Shown: positions 1 through 16,596 of the stretch, piece after piece
Numbering within the stretch: position 1 is the first letter of the stretch
How the letters are laid out: the number at the start of each line of letters is the position of its first letter
NCBI GenBank assembly: GCA_016207825.1
Contig: JACQZI010000024.1
Coordinates: forward strand, 1 to 16,596
Length of the DNA stretch: 16,596 nucleotides
Reading direction: 5' to 3'
Origin: Planctomycetota bacterium
GTDB lineage: Bacteria > Planctomycetota > MHYJ01 > JACQXL01 > JACQZI01
Notes under the pieces: generated by a model
What the model was told of the DNA's origin: nothing
What the model saw: only the letters and a program-made list of their open reading frames with translations
Databases searched by the model: none
Translations under genes and position numbers: made by a program

Positions 1-141
1 ATCACCAACGGGATTATCCAGGGATTCGTTGACCCGGCACTGGGGTTGGATTCCTTTACCACGGGTGGGCTTTCACACATGGATTACATCCTGGATGGTG
101 AGAAACGGCTCTGGCTGGATGTCCAGGTGAGCCAAGTGTAA
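1..141 (+). CDS. C-terminal fragment of an unidentified protein
   Basis: Frame 1 is open from the window edge to TAA at 139-141, giving 46 residues that end in LWLDVQVSQV. The residues are mixed polar and hydrophobic, with several Gly and Asp (GFVDPALGLDSF, GGLSHMDYILDG), and would suit a beta-rich or extracellular domain. There are too few to name a family. That this is a real gene end is supported by what follows: a small hairpin (ACACCC/GGGTGT, 141-156) directly at the stop codon and a strong intrinsic terminator at 172-208 in the right orientation. The start lies outside the window. Confidence 0.55.
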   Translation: MTNGIIQGFVDPALGLDSFTTGGLSHMDYILDGEKRLWLDVQVSQV

Positions 142-13009: not shown

Positions 13010-14488
13010 ATGAAGACCATCGCGGAATACCTTAATAAAAAGCCGGAGAATTTCACCAAAAGCGACCTAATCAGGTTCATTGATAAAAATAATATCCGGA
13101 TGCTGAATTTCCGCTATGTCGGCGGAGACGGCAAGTTAAAAACGCTTAACTTTGTCGTTACGGATAAAGCAAAACTGGATTTATTGCTTTCCGCCGGAGA
13201 GCGTGTCGACGGCTCCAGCCTTTTCCCGTATATCGATGCCGGGTCAAGCGACCTTTACGTCATCCCGCGCTATAAAACCGCCTTTATCAATCCCTTTTCC
13301 GCTTTCCCGTCAATTGATATCATGTGCGCTTATTATACCAGCAAAGGCATCCCACTTCCCAACGCTCCGGAACAGGTTGTCAAAAACGCCCATAACTCCC
13401 TTAAAAAAGCGACCGGATTAACTATGGAAGCGATGGGGGAACTGGAATACTACATACTTTACCCCAAGCAAGCGCTTTATCCGGTAAATGCGCAAACAGG
13501 CTACCACGGCTCGGCGCCTTTTACCAAATGGGAACGCCTTCGAGAAGAAGCCGTTGATATCATCTCCAAAATAGGCGGTATGGTCAAATACAGCCATGCC
13601 GAAGTGGGGCACACAACCGAAGGCGAACTGGAAATGGAACAGCAGGAAATAGAGCTTATCCCATCGCCGGTTGAAGATGCCGCTGACCAGGTGACCCTTG
13701 CCAAATGGGTTTTGAGGATGCTCGGCTATAAATACGGCGTGACCGTTACTTTCGCCCCGAAAATATTGGTCGGGCACGCCGGCAGCGGTCTGCACATCCA
13801 TACGCGCCTGGTTAAAAACGGGAAGAACATGATGGTGGCAAACGGTGAATTAAGCGAAACTGCCATGAAAGCCATTACCGGCTATCTTACGCTGGCGCCT
13901 TCGCTGACTGCCTTCGGCAATACCATCCCGATATCATATCTAAGGCTCGTCCCGCATCAGGAAGCGCCGACCAATATCTGCTGGGGCGACCGCAATCGTT
14001 CGGGCCTGGTCAGGGTGCCGCTGGGCTGGCGCAATTCCAAGAATATGGCTAAGGACGTTAATCCCGAAGAAAAAGGCTCGGTAAATAATTTCTACCAGAA
14101 CCAGACCGTTGAATTCCGCTGTCCCGACGGCTCGGCCGATATCTATCTACTGCTTGCCGGCTTAACCGTTGCCGCGCGGCACGGCCTCACCATGAAAGAC
14201 TCTCTCGCGCTCGCTGATAAGCTCTATGTGGATGTAAACATATTCTCTGATAAATTCAAATCCATCCAGAAAAAGCTAAAGGGACTGCCCACTTCATGTG
14301 CCGAATCGGCTGACAACCTGATTGCCGACCGTAAAATCTATGAAGCCGACGGCGTTTTCTCCGCTCGCGTCATAGAAGGAACGGTCTCAAAACTCCAGAG
14401 CTACCGCGACAGGAACTTAAGCGAAAAGCTTTACGGCAAGAAATCGGAGATACAAAAACTGGTCGAGCAATACCTCCATTACGCATAA
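13010..14488 (+). CDS. glnA: Glutamine synthetase
   Basis: Glutamine synthetase joins ammonia to glutamate with ATP and is the main entry of nitrogen into metabolism. At 492 residues it has the N-terminal beta-grasp (NIRMLNFRYVGGDGKLKTLNF, DGSSLFPYIDAGSSDLYVIP). The catalytic domain contains MGELEYYILYP, the metal/glutamate part HAEVGHTTEGELEMEQQEIEL, the ATP part GHAGSGLHIHTRLVKNG, and NRSGLVRVPLGW followed by VEFRCPDGSADIYLLLAGL. Several blocks differ from textbook GSI (NRSAAIRIP is usual), so it belongs to a diverged branch; the synthetase activity is still likely because the active-site acids and arginines appear kept. A Tyr in DKLYVDVN lies where GSI enzymes may be adenylylated. ATG 13010 is chosen, with GAGG (12996-12999) 10 nt before it; TTG 13004 is possible and adds two residues. 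The stop overlaps the next start by 1 nt (TAATG). Confidence 0.85.
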   Translation: MKTIAEYLNKKPENFTKSDLIRFIDKNNIRMLNFRYVGGDGKLKTLNFVVTDKAKLDLLLSAGERVDGSSLFPYIDAGSSDLYVIPRYKTAFINPFSAFPSIDIMCAYYTSKGIPLPNAPEQVVKNAHNSLKKATGLTMEAMGELEYYILYPKQALYPVNAQTGYHGSAPFTKWERLREEAVDIISKIGGMVKYSHAEVGHTTEGELEMEQQEIELIPSPVEDAADQVTLAKWVLRMLGYKYGVTVTFAPKILVGHAGSGLHIHTRLVKNGKNMMVANGELSETAMKAITGYLTLAPSLTAFGNTIPISYLRLVPHQEAPTNICWGDRNRSGLVRVPLGWRNSKNMAKDVNPEEKGSVNNFYQNQTVEFRCPDGSADIYLLLAGLTVAARHGLTMKDSLALADKLYVDVNIFSDKFKSIQKKLKGLPTSCAESADNLIADRKIYEADGVFSARVIEGTVSKLQSYRDRNLSEKLYGKKSEIQKLVEQYLHYA

Positions 14489-15252
14489 TGAAAGAGCATT
14501 TAGAAGGCAGGCAATCCATCCTTTCCGCATTAAAGGCTCGTAAACGGAAAATCGAGCTCCTGATGGTAAGCTTTAACGCCCATAAGGAAAAGACAGAGGA
14601 GGCCATCGCGCTTGCCGGTGAACAGAATATACCCGTGAAAACCGTCACGCCTGAAGAACTCGATGCCGCCTCCAAGGGCAAAACCCACGGCGGCCTGATT
14701 GCCATCTGCTCCCATAAACCAACGACCCAGTTTCCTGAACTGCTTGATAGCATTAAAAGTGTGGGGCATAATTCTTTTCTATTGCTCTTAGAAGGAGTGG
14801 AGGATGAACAGAACCTCGGATTCATCATCCGTTCGGCAGGGGCATTCGGGGTCAATGCCATGCTCTTAAAGAAGCATATCTGGAACTTTGACGAGCTAAC
14901 TCTCTCACGGACCTCGGCCGGGGCATATGAACAGATGCCGCTGGTAAAGATAGAAAAGGAAGCCGAGTCATTAAACCAGCTGAAGAAGGCAGGATTGAAG
15001 ATATTCGGGGCGATTGCCGGGGTTAAAAAGACGCTTTATGATATCGATTTTACCGTTCCGTGCGTTATTGCGCTGGGCGGGGAAAAGAGGGGGCTTTCCG
15101 CCGTGGTCAGGGAAAATTGCGACAGCTTCTTTACAATACCCATGCCCCAGCACAACGATGCGGTAGAAAAGCCATCCTTATCATTAAGCCACTCCGCGGC
15201 AATTATCATGGCGGAAGTTATGCGCCAGAGACTGAATAAAACCACTGGATAG
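14488..15252 (+). CDS. SpoU/TrmH-family RNA 2'-O-methyltransferase
   Basis: The 254 residues form an L30e-like substrate-binding part (about 1-90, with EGRQSILSALKARKRKIELL and GKTHGGLIAI) and a SPOUT trefoil-knot methyltransferase. The layout is that of RlmB/TrmH enzymes that methylate a ribose 2'-OH in rRNA or tRNA using SAM. Motif 1 is GVEDEQNLGFIIRSAGAFGV with its key Asn and Arg; motif 2 is VIALGGEKRGLS; motif 3 is IPMPQHND then PSLSLSHSAAIIMAE. Motif 2 has EKRG where EGxG is commonest, and motif 3 has SLS where SLN is usual, so the exact subfamily and target nucleotide are left open. It overlaps glnA by 1 nt and is thus probably coupled to it, although no pathway link is obvious. Confidence 0.88.
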   Translation: MKEHLEGRQSILSALKARKRKIELLMVSFNAHKEKTEEAIALAGEQNIPVKTVTPEELDAASKGKTHGGLIAICSHKPTTQFPELLDSIKSVGHNSFLLLLEGVEDEQNLGFIIRSAGAFGVNAMLLKKHIWNFDELTLSRTSAGAYEQMPLVKIEKEAESLNQLKKAGLKIFGAIAGVKKTLYDIDFTVPCVIALGGEKRGLSAVVRENCDSFFTIPMPQHNDAVEKPSLSLSHSAAIIMAEVMRQRLNKTTG

Positions 15253-15497
15253 TAACATCCTCTTATCCTTCTAATCCTAATCTTAATCCCTCATCCCTAA
15301 TAGAAAATAGTATCTGACTTCTTATCCGAAAATTCCTTAGTACTTATCAGCCAGATATGGAATTCCATATATTATTAGCCCTAATCCGATAGGGGAGTAG
15401 AGGGTGTTAAAATACTACCATACAATCATTGTTTTACCCATTCTCCCTCTTTCTAACCGCCAATAAATACTATAATTATAGACGATATCCCCTGTCC
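15253..15497. other. Non-coding gap, first part
   Basis: No gene is recognised. The first 50 bp are pyrimidine-rich with repeated CTAATC/TTAATCCC words. A perfect 16-bp palindrome, ATATGGAATTCCATAT, lies at 15355-15370. Weak 22-bp-spaced TATA blocks (for example ACTATAAT at 15469-15476) suggest that the phased array beginning at 15498 extends upstream in decayed form, with a 1-bp shift in phase. No intrinsic terminator for the methyltransferase gene was recognised. Confidence 0.6.
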
Positions 15498-15783
15498 ACG
15501 CCATGGTCTGGCATATACTATCTGGGGGTGTGGCATAGGGGGTATGCCACCCACAATTATACCGTATCACAGTAAGGCATATAACACATACCTTACACCC
15601 TGACAGTATATGCATGTCCGTGTTATACTATATGCGTATCCGTCAGTTGATATATGCATGACCACCTTACTCTATATCCATTACCGGCTTATAATATCTG
15701 CACTTCGGCCATTTATTATATGGCGGTGGTGCTTATAATATATGACTAACCACCACAGGATATCAGCCGGTCCGGGAGATGAT
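15498..15783. repeat. Phased 22-bp tandem array (13 units)
   Basis: Cut every 22 bp from 15498, the sequence stacks into 13 rows with no gaps. Position 1 is A in 11 of 13 rows (G in the rest), position 2 T in 11, position 4 T in 11, position 5 G in 9, position 6 C in 8, position 11 C in 10, position 15 C in 10, position 16 A or T in all 13, position 18 A in 11 and position 22 T in 9. The pattern is ATATGC, a variable middle with C at 11, then CwTATAmT. The most regular rows start at 15608, 15630, 15652, 15674, 15718 and 15740. The AT-rich core thus recurs about every two helical turns, with a mostly variable, GC-richer filler between. Several inverted repeats are centred on or near the cores. 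It ends about 50 bp before a strong promoter. Role unknown. Confidence 0.85.
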
Positions 15784-15833
15784 ACGAGGGGGATGGCGGT
15801 ACTAATAATATTACTATATTTTCAGAGCCGGAG

Positions 15834-15862
15834 TTGACAAAACCCAAATTATGCTTTATACT
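15834..15862 (+). promoter_or_regulatory. Strong promoter of the last gene
   Basis: TTGACA (15834-15839), 17 bp, TATACT (15857-15862) predicts a start near 15869. The leader of about 65 nt can fold a small hairpin, GGGGA (15873-15877) with TCCCC (15893-15897), before the ribosome site. Confidence 0.8.
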
Positions 15863-15933
15863 TAAATGAGAAGGGGAATATCAGTTAAAACGTCCCCGAA
15901 TATATAATTATTTGCGGAAGGAGGTGACTGAAA

Positions 15934-16470
15934 GTGAAACCATTATTGCATCTTAAGCTGTATCCATTTGCCTCAAGCGAGCCGCCCGACCATATGACCG
16001 AGCAATGGGTGGAGGGATTCCAAGCGAATGCTCCTCGGATAATAAAGAAGCTGATGAGGAAGATAAAGGATGAAGCGGATTATTATGAAAAGGTGGTTGG
16101 GGTCATCCTCAAGCGTTATCCGAAGTTTATCAATCCGTCTTTCATCAGCCGTTCTGGTCTGAATTCAAAGGCGATTATCCAGAAAATTTCCAAGCACCTG
16201 CAGAGCTCTTACGAGAAATACAAGAAGAACCTGGACCGGGCGTATGAAACGGTTGACGGAATCCCGGCCAAGCGATTCAAGGAAGCCGTTGCAGCGGCCA
16301 AGGAGCATTACGCCAAAAGGATGAGGGAGATAACGCTTCCCTTTACCGGCACCAAGGCGGAAGGATTGGGCATCGCCCCGATTGTCGCTCTCTGGCTGAC
16401 CGAAGATACGACCTCGGAAGGCGTCTTAAGGCGGGGAGATGAACTATTGGGCGGCGCCCTGCTCTGTTGA
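15934..16470 (+). CDS. Unrecognised 178-residue protein
   Basis: I do not recognise this protein. It is largely helical and basic in its first two thirds (PRIIKKLMRKIKDEADYYEKV, KAIIQKISKHLQSSYEKYKKN, PAKRFKEAVAAAKEHYAKRM). It ends in a more hydrophobic, Gly-rich tail (LPFTGTKAEGLGIAPIVALWL, RRGDELLGGALLC) finishing in Cys. There is no signal peptide and no clear membrane helix. The start is GTG 15934, fixed by AAGGAGGTGA (15918-15927), a ribosome site fully complementary to the usual 16S 3' end and stronger than any other in the window. A near-consensus promoter and the 22-bp array lie upstream. The strong expression signals and lack of family suggest an accessory or structural product, perhaps phage-like, but that is conjecture. 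Confidence 0.7.
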   Translation: MKPLLHLKLYPFASSEPPDHMTEQWVEGFQANAPRIIKKLMRKIKDEADYYEKVVGVILKRYPKFINPSFISRSGLNSKAIIQKISKHLQSSYEKYKKNLDRAYETVDGIPAKRFKEAVAAAKEHYAKRMREITLPFTGTKAEGLGIAPIVALWLTEDTTSEGVLRRGDELLGGALLC

Positions 16471-16596
16471 ATAATTTTTATAAGTTTCTTCTTTCGGTTT
16501 ATTAGCTGTTTTACCTCTACGCTATGGCTTTTTCTTTCCGATAACCTCTGCTAACAAACTTAAACAGATTCATTATGTTACCCTTAAACCTTAACT
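16471..16596. other. AT-rich tail of the window
   Basis: These 126 bp hold runs of T (16475-16479 and a TTTTTC near 16530) and no convincing open frame, stem-loop or promoter. Nothing further is supported. Confidence 0.5.

Follow-up and report, generated by a model that had tools for sequence, protein, structure and literature searches.

Phased 22-bp arrays of differing sequence and a linked protein family in Planctomycetota genomes

The question raised by this locus is what keeps a row of 22-bp units in phase when much of each unit is free to vary, and what the row has to do with the gene behind it. The array lies in a gap bounded by a gene for a 23S rRNA methyltransferase (14488-15252, Pfam SpoU_methylase) and an open reading frame at 15934-16470. 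The window analysed here is an entire contig, C24, of 16,596 bases, from the 2.89-Mb genome, in 42 contigs, of an uncultured groundwater bacterium.

The array in the window and the gene behind it

In a first-pass annotation of this DNA, the gap had been divided into 13 phased rows of 22 bp without an indel, and autocorrelation against shuffled sequence had been proposed as a check. At lag 22, the match within 15498-15783 was 0.492, clearly above the 0.251 +/- 0.029 of dinucleotide-preserving shuffles (z 8.3; none of 5000 shuffles was as high). Lags of 44, 66, and 88 were as high as 22, and the remaining lags were far lower. Rows were then scored against a profile built from the eight rows at 15608-15783. 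Each of these eight reached p<=0.0005; among the five rows upstream, the core profile gave p values of 0.0002-0.004 for rows 15498, 15520, 15564, and 15586, and 0.07 for row 15542. Rows beyond 15498-15783 were non-significant, except row 15784 (p 0.04). The division into 13 rows was thus a fair one, with eight strong rows and five weak rows. The consensus of the strong rows (Table 1) reads ATATGCC-N5-GGCATAT followed by AAT; the unit is a dyad in which the outer arms are conserved, and its symmetry exceeded that of column-permuted controls (0 of 400). Tandem Repeats Finder did not report the window array, because the copies are too diverged.

Table 1. Features of the window, by position
Feature	Position	Strand	Basis
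Final ~44 codons (3' end) of a further X copy, left contig end	4..138	+	
Five weaker upstream rows (15498, 15520, 15542, 15564, 15586)	15498..15607		core-profile row scores
G-rich hairpin within the weak rows, arms GTGGCATA (15530-15537) and TATGCCAC (15543-15550)	15524..15550		
Eight strong rows, consensus ATATGCCTGTCCGGCATATAAT	15608..15783		lag-22 autocorrelation, dyad test, row scores
G-rich block ACGAGGGGGATGGCGGTAC, gene-side close of the array	15784..15802		sequence; similar blocks after other arrays
Sigma-70-type promoter TTGACA-17-TATACT	15834..15862	+	
Ribosome-binding site AAGGAGGTGA	15918..15927	+	sequence
Family X gene, 178 aa, GTG start at 15934, truncated	15934..16470	+	homology to the 265-aa family ends at ~16458
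Multi-copy repeat end (IS-like), interrupts X and closes the contig	16459..16596		

Comparison with other loci suggests that the hairpin within the weak rows possibly corresponds to the G/C hairpin seen beside other arrays. A strong promoter between the array and the gene, proposed earlier, is present as listed in Table 1. The nearest paralogue of the locus (L026) likewise carries TTGACA-17-TATAAT after its array, and a strong promoter behind the array was found only in the window and in this paralogue. The downstream gene belongs to a multi-copy family, here called X. It is interrupted by the repeat end at 16459-16596 (TGCTCTGTTGAATAATTTTTATAAG...), which recurs at eight further contig ends of the genome and is probably an insertion sequence. 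On another contig (C32, L125), this repeat abuts another 22-bp array. The 135 bases at window 4-138 also open contig C28, and X copies are frequent break points of contigs in this genome.

Arrays, hairpins, and family X across genomes

Similar arrays, for which a scan of the genome and its relatives had been suggested, were found in number. On a 325-kb contig of the same genome (C7), which was read throughout, there were 10 arrays at period 22, and among periods 16-29 the only array at another period was one at 21. A 160-kb sample of a relative (G003) held 5 arrays at period 22 and three at 21. Altogether, 52 distinct arrays were catalogued from related Planctomycetota (Brocadiia) genomes, and their flanking genes often belonged to family X. 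The relatives are Planctomycetota metagenome genomes, mostly of groundwater origin; some bear the label Candidatus Brocadiia or Brocadiaceae. Array density was based on sampled contigs and, scaled from these, is estimated at ~90 arrays for the genome of the window. Arrays comprised 5-17 units, most commonly 13. Their words were mostly unrelated: 12 of 1326 pairs were more similar than the 99.9% null level, most of them recognisable copies, and the other 1314 were not above it. When gaps were classified for 17 arrays on the sampled contigs, eight lay between tandem, five between convergent, and four between divergent genes, a distribution that resembles that of other gaps. About half of the arrays were solo, with no X nearby. 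At the orthologous position in G003, the methyltransferase gene was found without an adjoining array or X.

Several individual arrays merit description. Two solo arrays 96 kb apart (G000:C7:152119-152382 and 248607-248826) have a common word, TAGGANTCCTA, and a near-identical hairpin, as would result from joint copying of the two parts; in the second of these, the units alternate in a 44-bp pattern. Elsewhere on the same contig (G000:C7:175893-176412), two adjoining arrays with different words occupy a single gap.

A G/C hairpin of the type GGGGG..CCCCC (for example, GGGGGTAAGATACCCCCC) was present within 120 bp of 23 of the 52 arrays, on one side only, compared with 14 of 479 control window pairs. 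A search of 79 genomes with the marker pattern GGGGGTAN{2,8}TACCCCC gave few matches, the pattern being too strict.

Family X was carried by six genomes, all of one order. Within its own genome, the window open reading frame gave 35 matches when searched as a single sequence and 53 when the family profile was used. Full-length members have ~265 residues and are basic (median pI 9.2), and the structure model was of pLDDT 92 and pTM 0.76. Searches against Pfam, PHROGs, NCBIfam, PADLOC, and PDB sequences returned scattered weak matches only. In fold searches, the best Foldseek E was 0.97 (PDB) or 0.51 (BFVD), and the VIA Z was <=5.4, which is no proof of a new fold; neither sequence nor fold searches yielded a recognised DNA-binding fold or family. 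Nor was X found in phage collections, plasmid collections, or viral contigs at the sensitivity used.

The linkage between arrays and X was examined at 40 X loci, 19 of which had an array <=1.5 kb upstream; several of the loci without one were preceded by another gene on the same strand. On C7, four of six X genes had an array <=500 bp upstream. In X-bearing genomes there were 18 arrays in 548 kb, whereas 315 kb from X-less genomes of that order contained none, with about ten expected; the shortness of the X-less contigs makes this absence weaker evidence, yet does not explain it away. Moreover, similarity between words tracked similarity between the X proteins (Mantel rank p 0.006; 0.02 without close pairs), which may reflect common descent rather than recognition. 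Duplicated copies were also found. The pair L056/L057 has 1.18 kb in common, which starts shortly ahead of the array and stops close to the end of X; in L027/L042, the common DNA starts ~250 bp ahead of the array and runs as far as the stop codon of X; and in both pairs the flanks are unrelated. Such copies carry array, hairpin, and X as a group. The earlier suggestion that the gene is part of a system was therefore borne out, since there are dozens of paralogues, many with an upstream array, and array and gene duplicate as a unit.

About ten isolated 3'-end fragments of X were also found, most of them after a conserved G-rich leader. At L111-L120, a non-coding element of ~370 bp, with G-rich blocks (GGGGGGATGGGTAGAGGGGGG) and varied 3' ends, occurs in about eight copies and leads directly into the last ~37 codons of X. 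Other genes recur near X loci. At L031, L033, L035-L037, L046, L047, and L051, X follows, or is open in frame with, a gene for a membrane-anchored trypsin-like protease (VLTAAHVVG...PGNSGGPVY) and small zinc-ribbon-like genes. At L059 and L061-L065 (G003 and G007), X is followed by a gene for a ~330-aa decapeptide-repeat protein (KIADGAITxx) resembling a phage tail fibre. A sigma-factor-like gene family occurs near X at L035, L036, L045, L054, and L063.

What holds the spacing, and what might read it

The first-pass annotation had described a unit with one conserved and one variable half, and had proposed that the spacing itself is selected. The former pattern is common to these arrays: column conservation was unequal in 34 of 40 (Fisher chi2 406, df 80), and over the 40 arrays conservation was clustered in one stretch (first-harmonic z 4.9). 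Non-consensus cells made up a quarter of positions (2,869 of 11,660). Against these 2,869 substitutions, no out-of-phase unit was found in the array flanks at any threshold; this flank test was added because arrays are detected via their phase, so that multiply broken arrays would escape. The units of an array are star-like in their divergence, and neighbours are no more alike than distant units, so recent tandem duplication is not the cause of their likeness. Decay after amplification predicts equal columns and broken phase; neither was seen, and we take these as signs of selection. With 52 arrays of mostly different words at one period and no out-of-phase units, the proposal that the spacing is selected stands. 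Only 9 of 40 arrays had significantly palindromic words. A shared helical phasing of A+T and G+C was also tried; it was significant against permuted columns, vanished against flanking DNA, and was dropped, with one 5.5-bp term remaining.

Whether the arrays are rows of predicted protein sites (about 13 in the window) exactly two helical turns apart, often within dispersing array-X cassettes, we regard as evenly balanced, and it is the explanation that we favour. With dimeric protein sites every two turns, adjacent dimers would touch and form a row, or filament, along one face of the DNA. The window array would be the upstream end of a dispersing unit composed of array, G-rich block or hairpin, promoter, and gene X. 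The array would most likely be where a DNA-binding protein, perhaps X, assembles to mark or control the unit, and solo arrays would either be remnants or receive the protein in trans. The leading candidate for the binder is X because it is linked to the arrays, is basic, and diversifies roughly with the words. The period, the dispersal, the conserved core, the lack of phase slips, and the linkage and joint duplication with X are observations, whereas protein binding, filament formation, and the role of X as binder are inferences. Weighing against this explanation are the many arrays far from any X and the five in convergent gaps, the small share of significantly palindromic words, the restriction of the strong promoter to the window and its nearest paralogue, the failure of X to match a recognised DNA-binding fold or family, and the loss of the A+T and G+C pattern in the comparison with flanking DNA; the likeness between words and X may, moreover, stem from common descent. 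A bolder form of this explanation is doubtful, if worth keeping in view: the units would be self-spreading cassettes with private addresses, in which an X of new fold recognises and assembles on its own array, making it the first protein partner of a satellite; one chromosome would then hold dozens of mutually distinct versions.

An unlikely alternative is that the arrays are satellites that have no cognate protein, produced by local amplification in fixed 22-bp steps anywhere between genes and then left to decay, with X a mere neighbour. Words that differ everywhere, solo arrays, star-like divergence, and an intergenic placement indifferent to gap type would all suit such a process. It accounts poorly, however, for the unequal columns and the absence of phase slips, for a hairpin on one side only, for an X linkage far above chance, and for the absence of arrays in X-less relatives.

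We consider it distinctly unlikely that the array forms one end of a mobile element, holding sites for X or for a recombinase or transposase acting in trans, with array, hairpin, and X as the cassette and with solo arrays and X 3' ends as its remnants. The two duplicated pairs described above, whose common DNA is limited to a stretch that starts ahead of the array and ends at the 3' end of X, argue for it, as do the two solo arrays with a common word and hairpin and the isolated X 3'-end fragments, most behind a G-rich leader. No transposase was found in the unit, however, nor were target duplications or terminal inverted repeats recognised; X has no transposase match in sequence or fold; and the words are mostly unrelated, unlike transposon ends.

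The arrays had also been suggested to be either an RNA of regular modules or a control array for the downstream gene. As an RNA stem, the window unit was rejected. Within-row pairing of the dyad arms involved 46% of cells, compared with 55% in shuffles, 499 of 500 of which reached or exceeded the observed value; there was one two-sided change, and the pairs are broken, not compensated. Predicted folding of the window array was modest (z -1.5/-1.65), and most arrays likewise folded near their shuffles (mean z -1.3/-1.1); the strong folders (C7:152119, C7:248607, and G003 C3:126563, z -6 to -11) were a few palindromic arrays. A search of Rfam with 15000-16596 gave no match. A constant outer-word dyad without compensation is more readily reconciled with protein binding to double-stranded DNA than with an RNA stem. 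It is accordingly very unlikely that the array acts as a transcribed RNA, either a repeat RNA like those of type III toxin-antitoxin systems or a protein-binding sponge, even though a family gene directly follows the repeats, strong folding is predicted for some arrays, and 52-nt satellites are transcribed in Bacillus coagulans (PMC8625621): the only recognised promoter in the window follows the array, compensatory pairs are lacking there, and X has no toxin match. As for control, about half of the arrays are solo and 5 of 17 lie between convergent genes, where they are not promoter elements, and the strong promoter is confined to the window and its nearest paralogue. Control of a gene can thus account for the arrays only in part, and a private array that controls a single gene fails as a general rule. 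Of the two options offered for the relation between array and gene, the system was upheld and the simple control array was not.

Comparison with known systems

Plasmid iterons, such as those of R6K and RK2, are direct repeats with a period of ~22 bp on which initiator proteins are arranged along one DNA face. The window array shares the direct repeats at two-turn spacing, but the arrays described here are chromosomal, number in the dozens, and have different words, and searches of Pfam, PHROGs, and NCBIfam linked X to no replication-initiator family. In type III toxin-antitoxin systems (ToxIN, CptIN, and TenpIN), tandem repeats lie just upstream of a small protein gene. The arrays resemble these in standing upstream of a small gene and in that repeats and protein diverge together; they differ in having a shorter repeat, a recognised promoter between array and gene, and many arrays without the gene. 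X showed no sequence match to ToxN, CptN, or TenpN in Pfam, PADLOC, or NCBIfam; such a relation may have escaped the fold lists, which are weak. CRISPR arrays, too, are built of regular units in which one part is constant and another varies, but the whole unit here is 22 bp, and the best-preserved arrays (L056/L057) conserve almost all of it. CRISPR was rejected on this misfit of unit length and conservation. No Cas genes were recognised; one of 37 members of X gave weak Cas13c matches (E 0.002-0.008), and no Cas family was recognised for X.

The closest likeness is to published satellites of constant size and variable sequence (background in PMC6749651). Subirana and Messeguer described bacterial tandem repeats of this kind, mainly of 20-21 and 52 nt, with many intergenic arrays per genome, one size per organism, words that differ between arrays, 4-10 or more units, and a short conserved motif in the unit (PMC8161180). 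They noted that 20-21 nt corresponds to two helical turns and suggested a polymerising protein or small RNAs (PMC8161180). Because that work describes constant-period, variable-sequence repeats in other bacteria, our array was only partly 'uncharacterised', as it had first been called. Shared features are the dominance of one non-coding size, as on C7, and the unrelated words. Two things differ: the size and the host, 22 nt in Planctomycetota as against 20-21 or 52 nt (PMC8161180), and the one-sided G/C hairpin and the linkage to a protein family, of which we found no mention in that paper. The best reading is that the arrays are a 22-nt form of the published satellites. To these the present analysis adds a hairpin, a cassette structure, and a protein family. 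Bacterial repeats of fixed length and free sequence have so far been described without a known partner or function; since both a hairpin and a protein family are linked to the present arrays, the question of what recognises the spacing can be put to the test, and if X does not bind the arrays, the fixed spacing would still call for a chromosome-organising protein.
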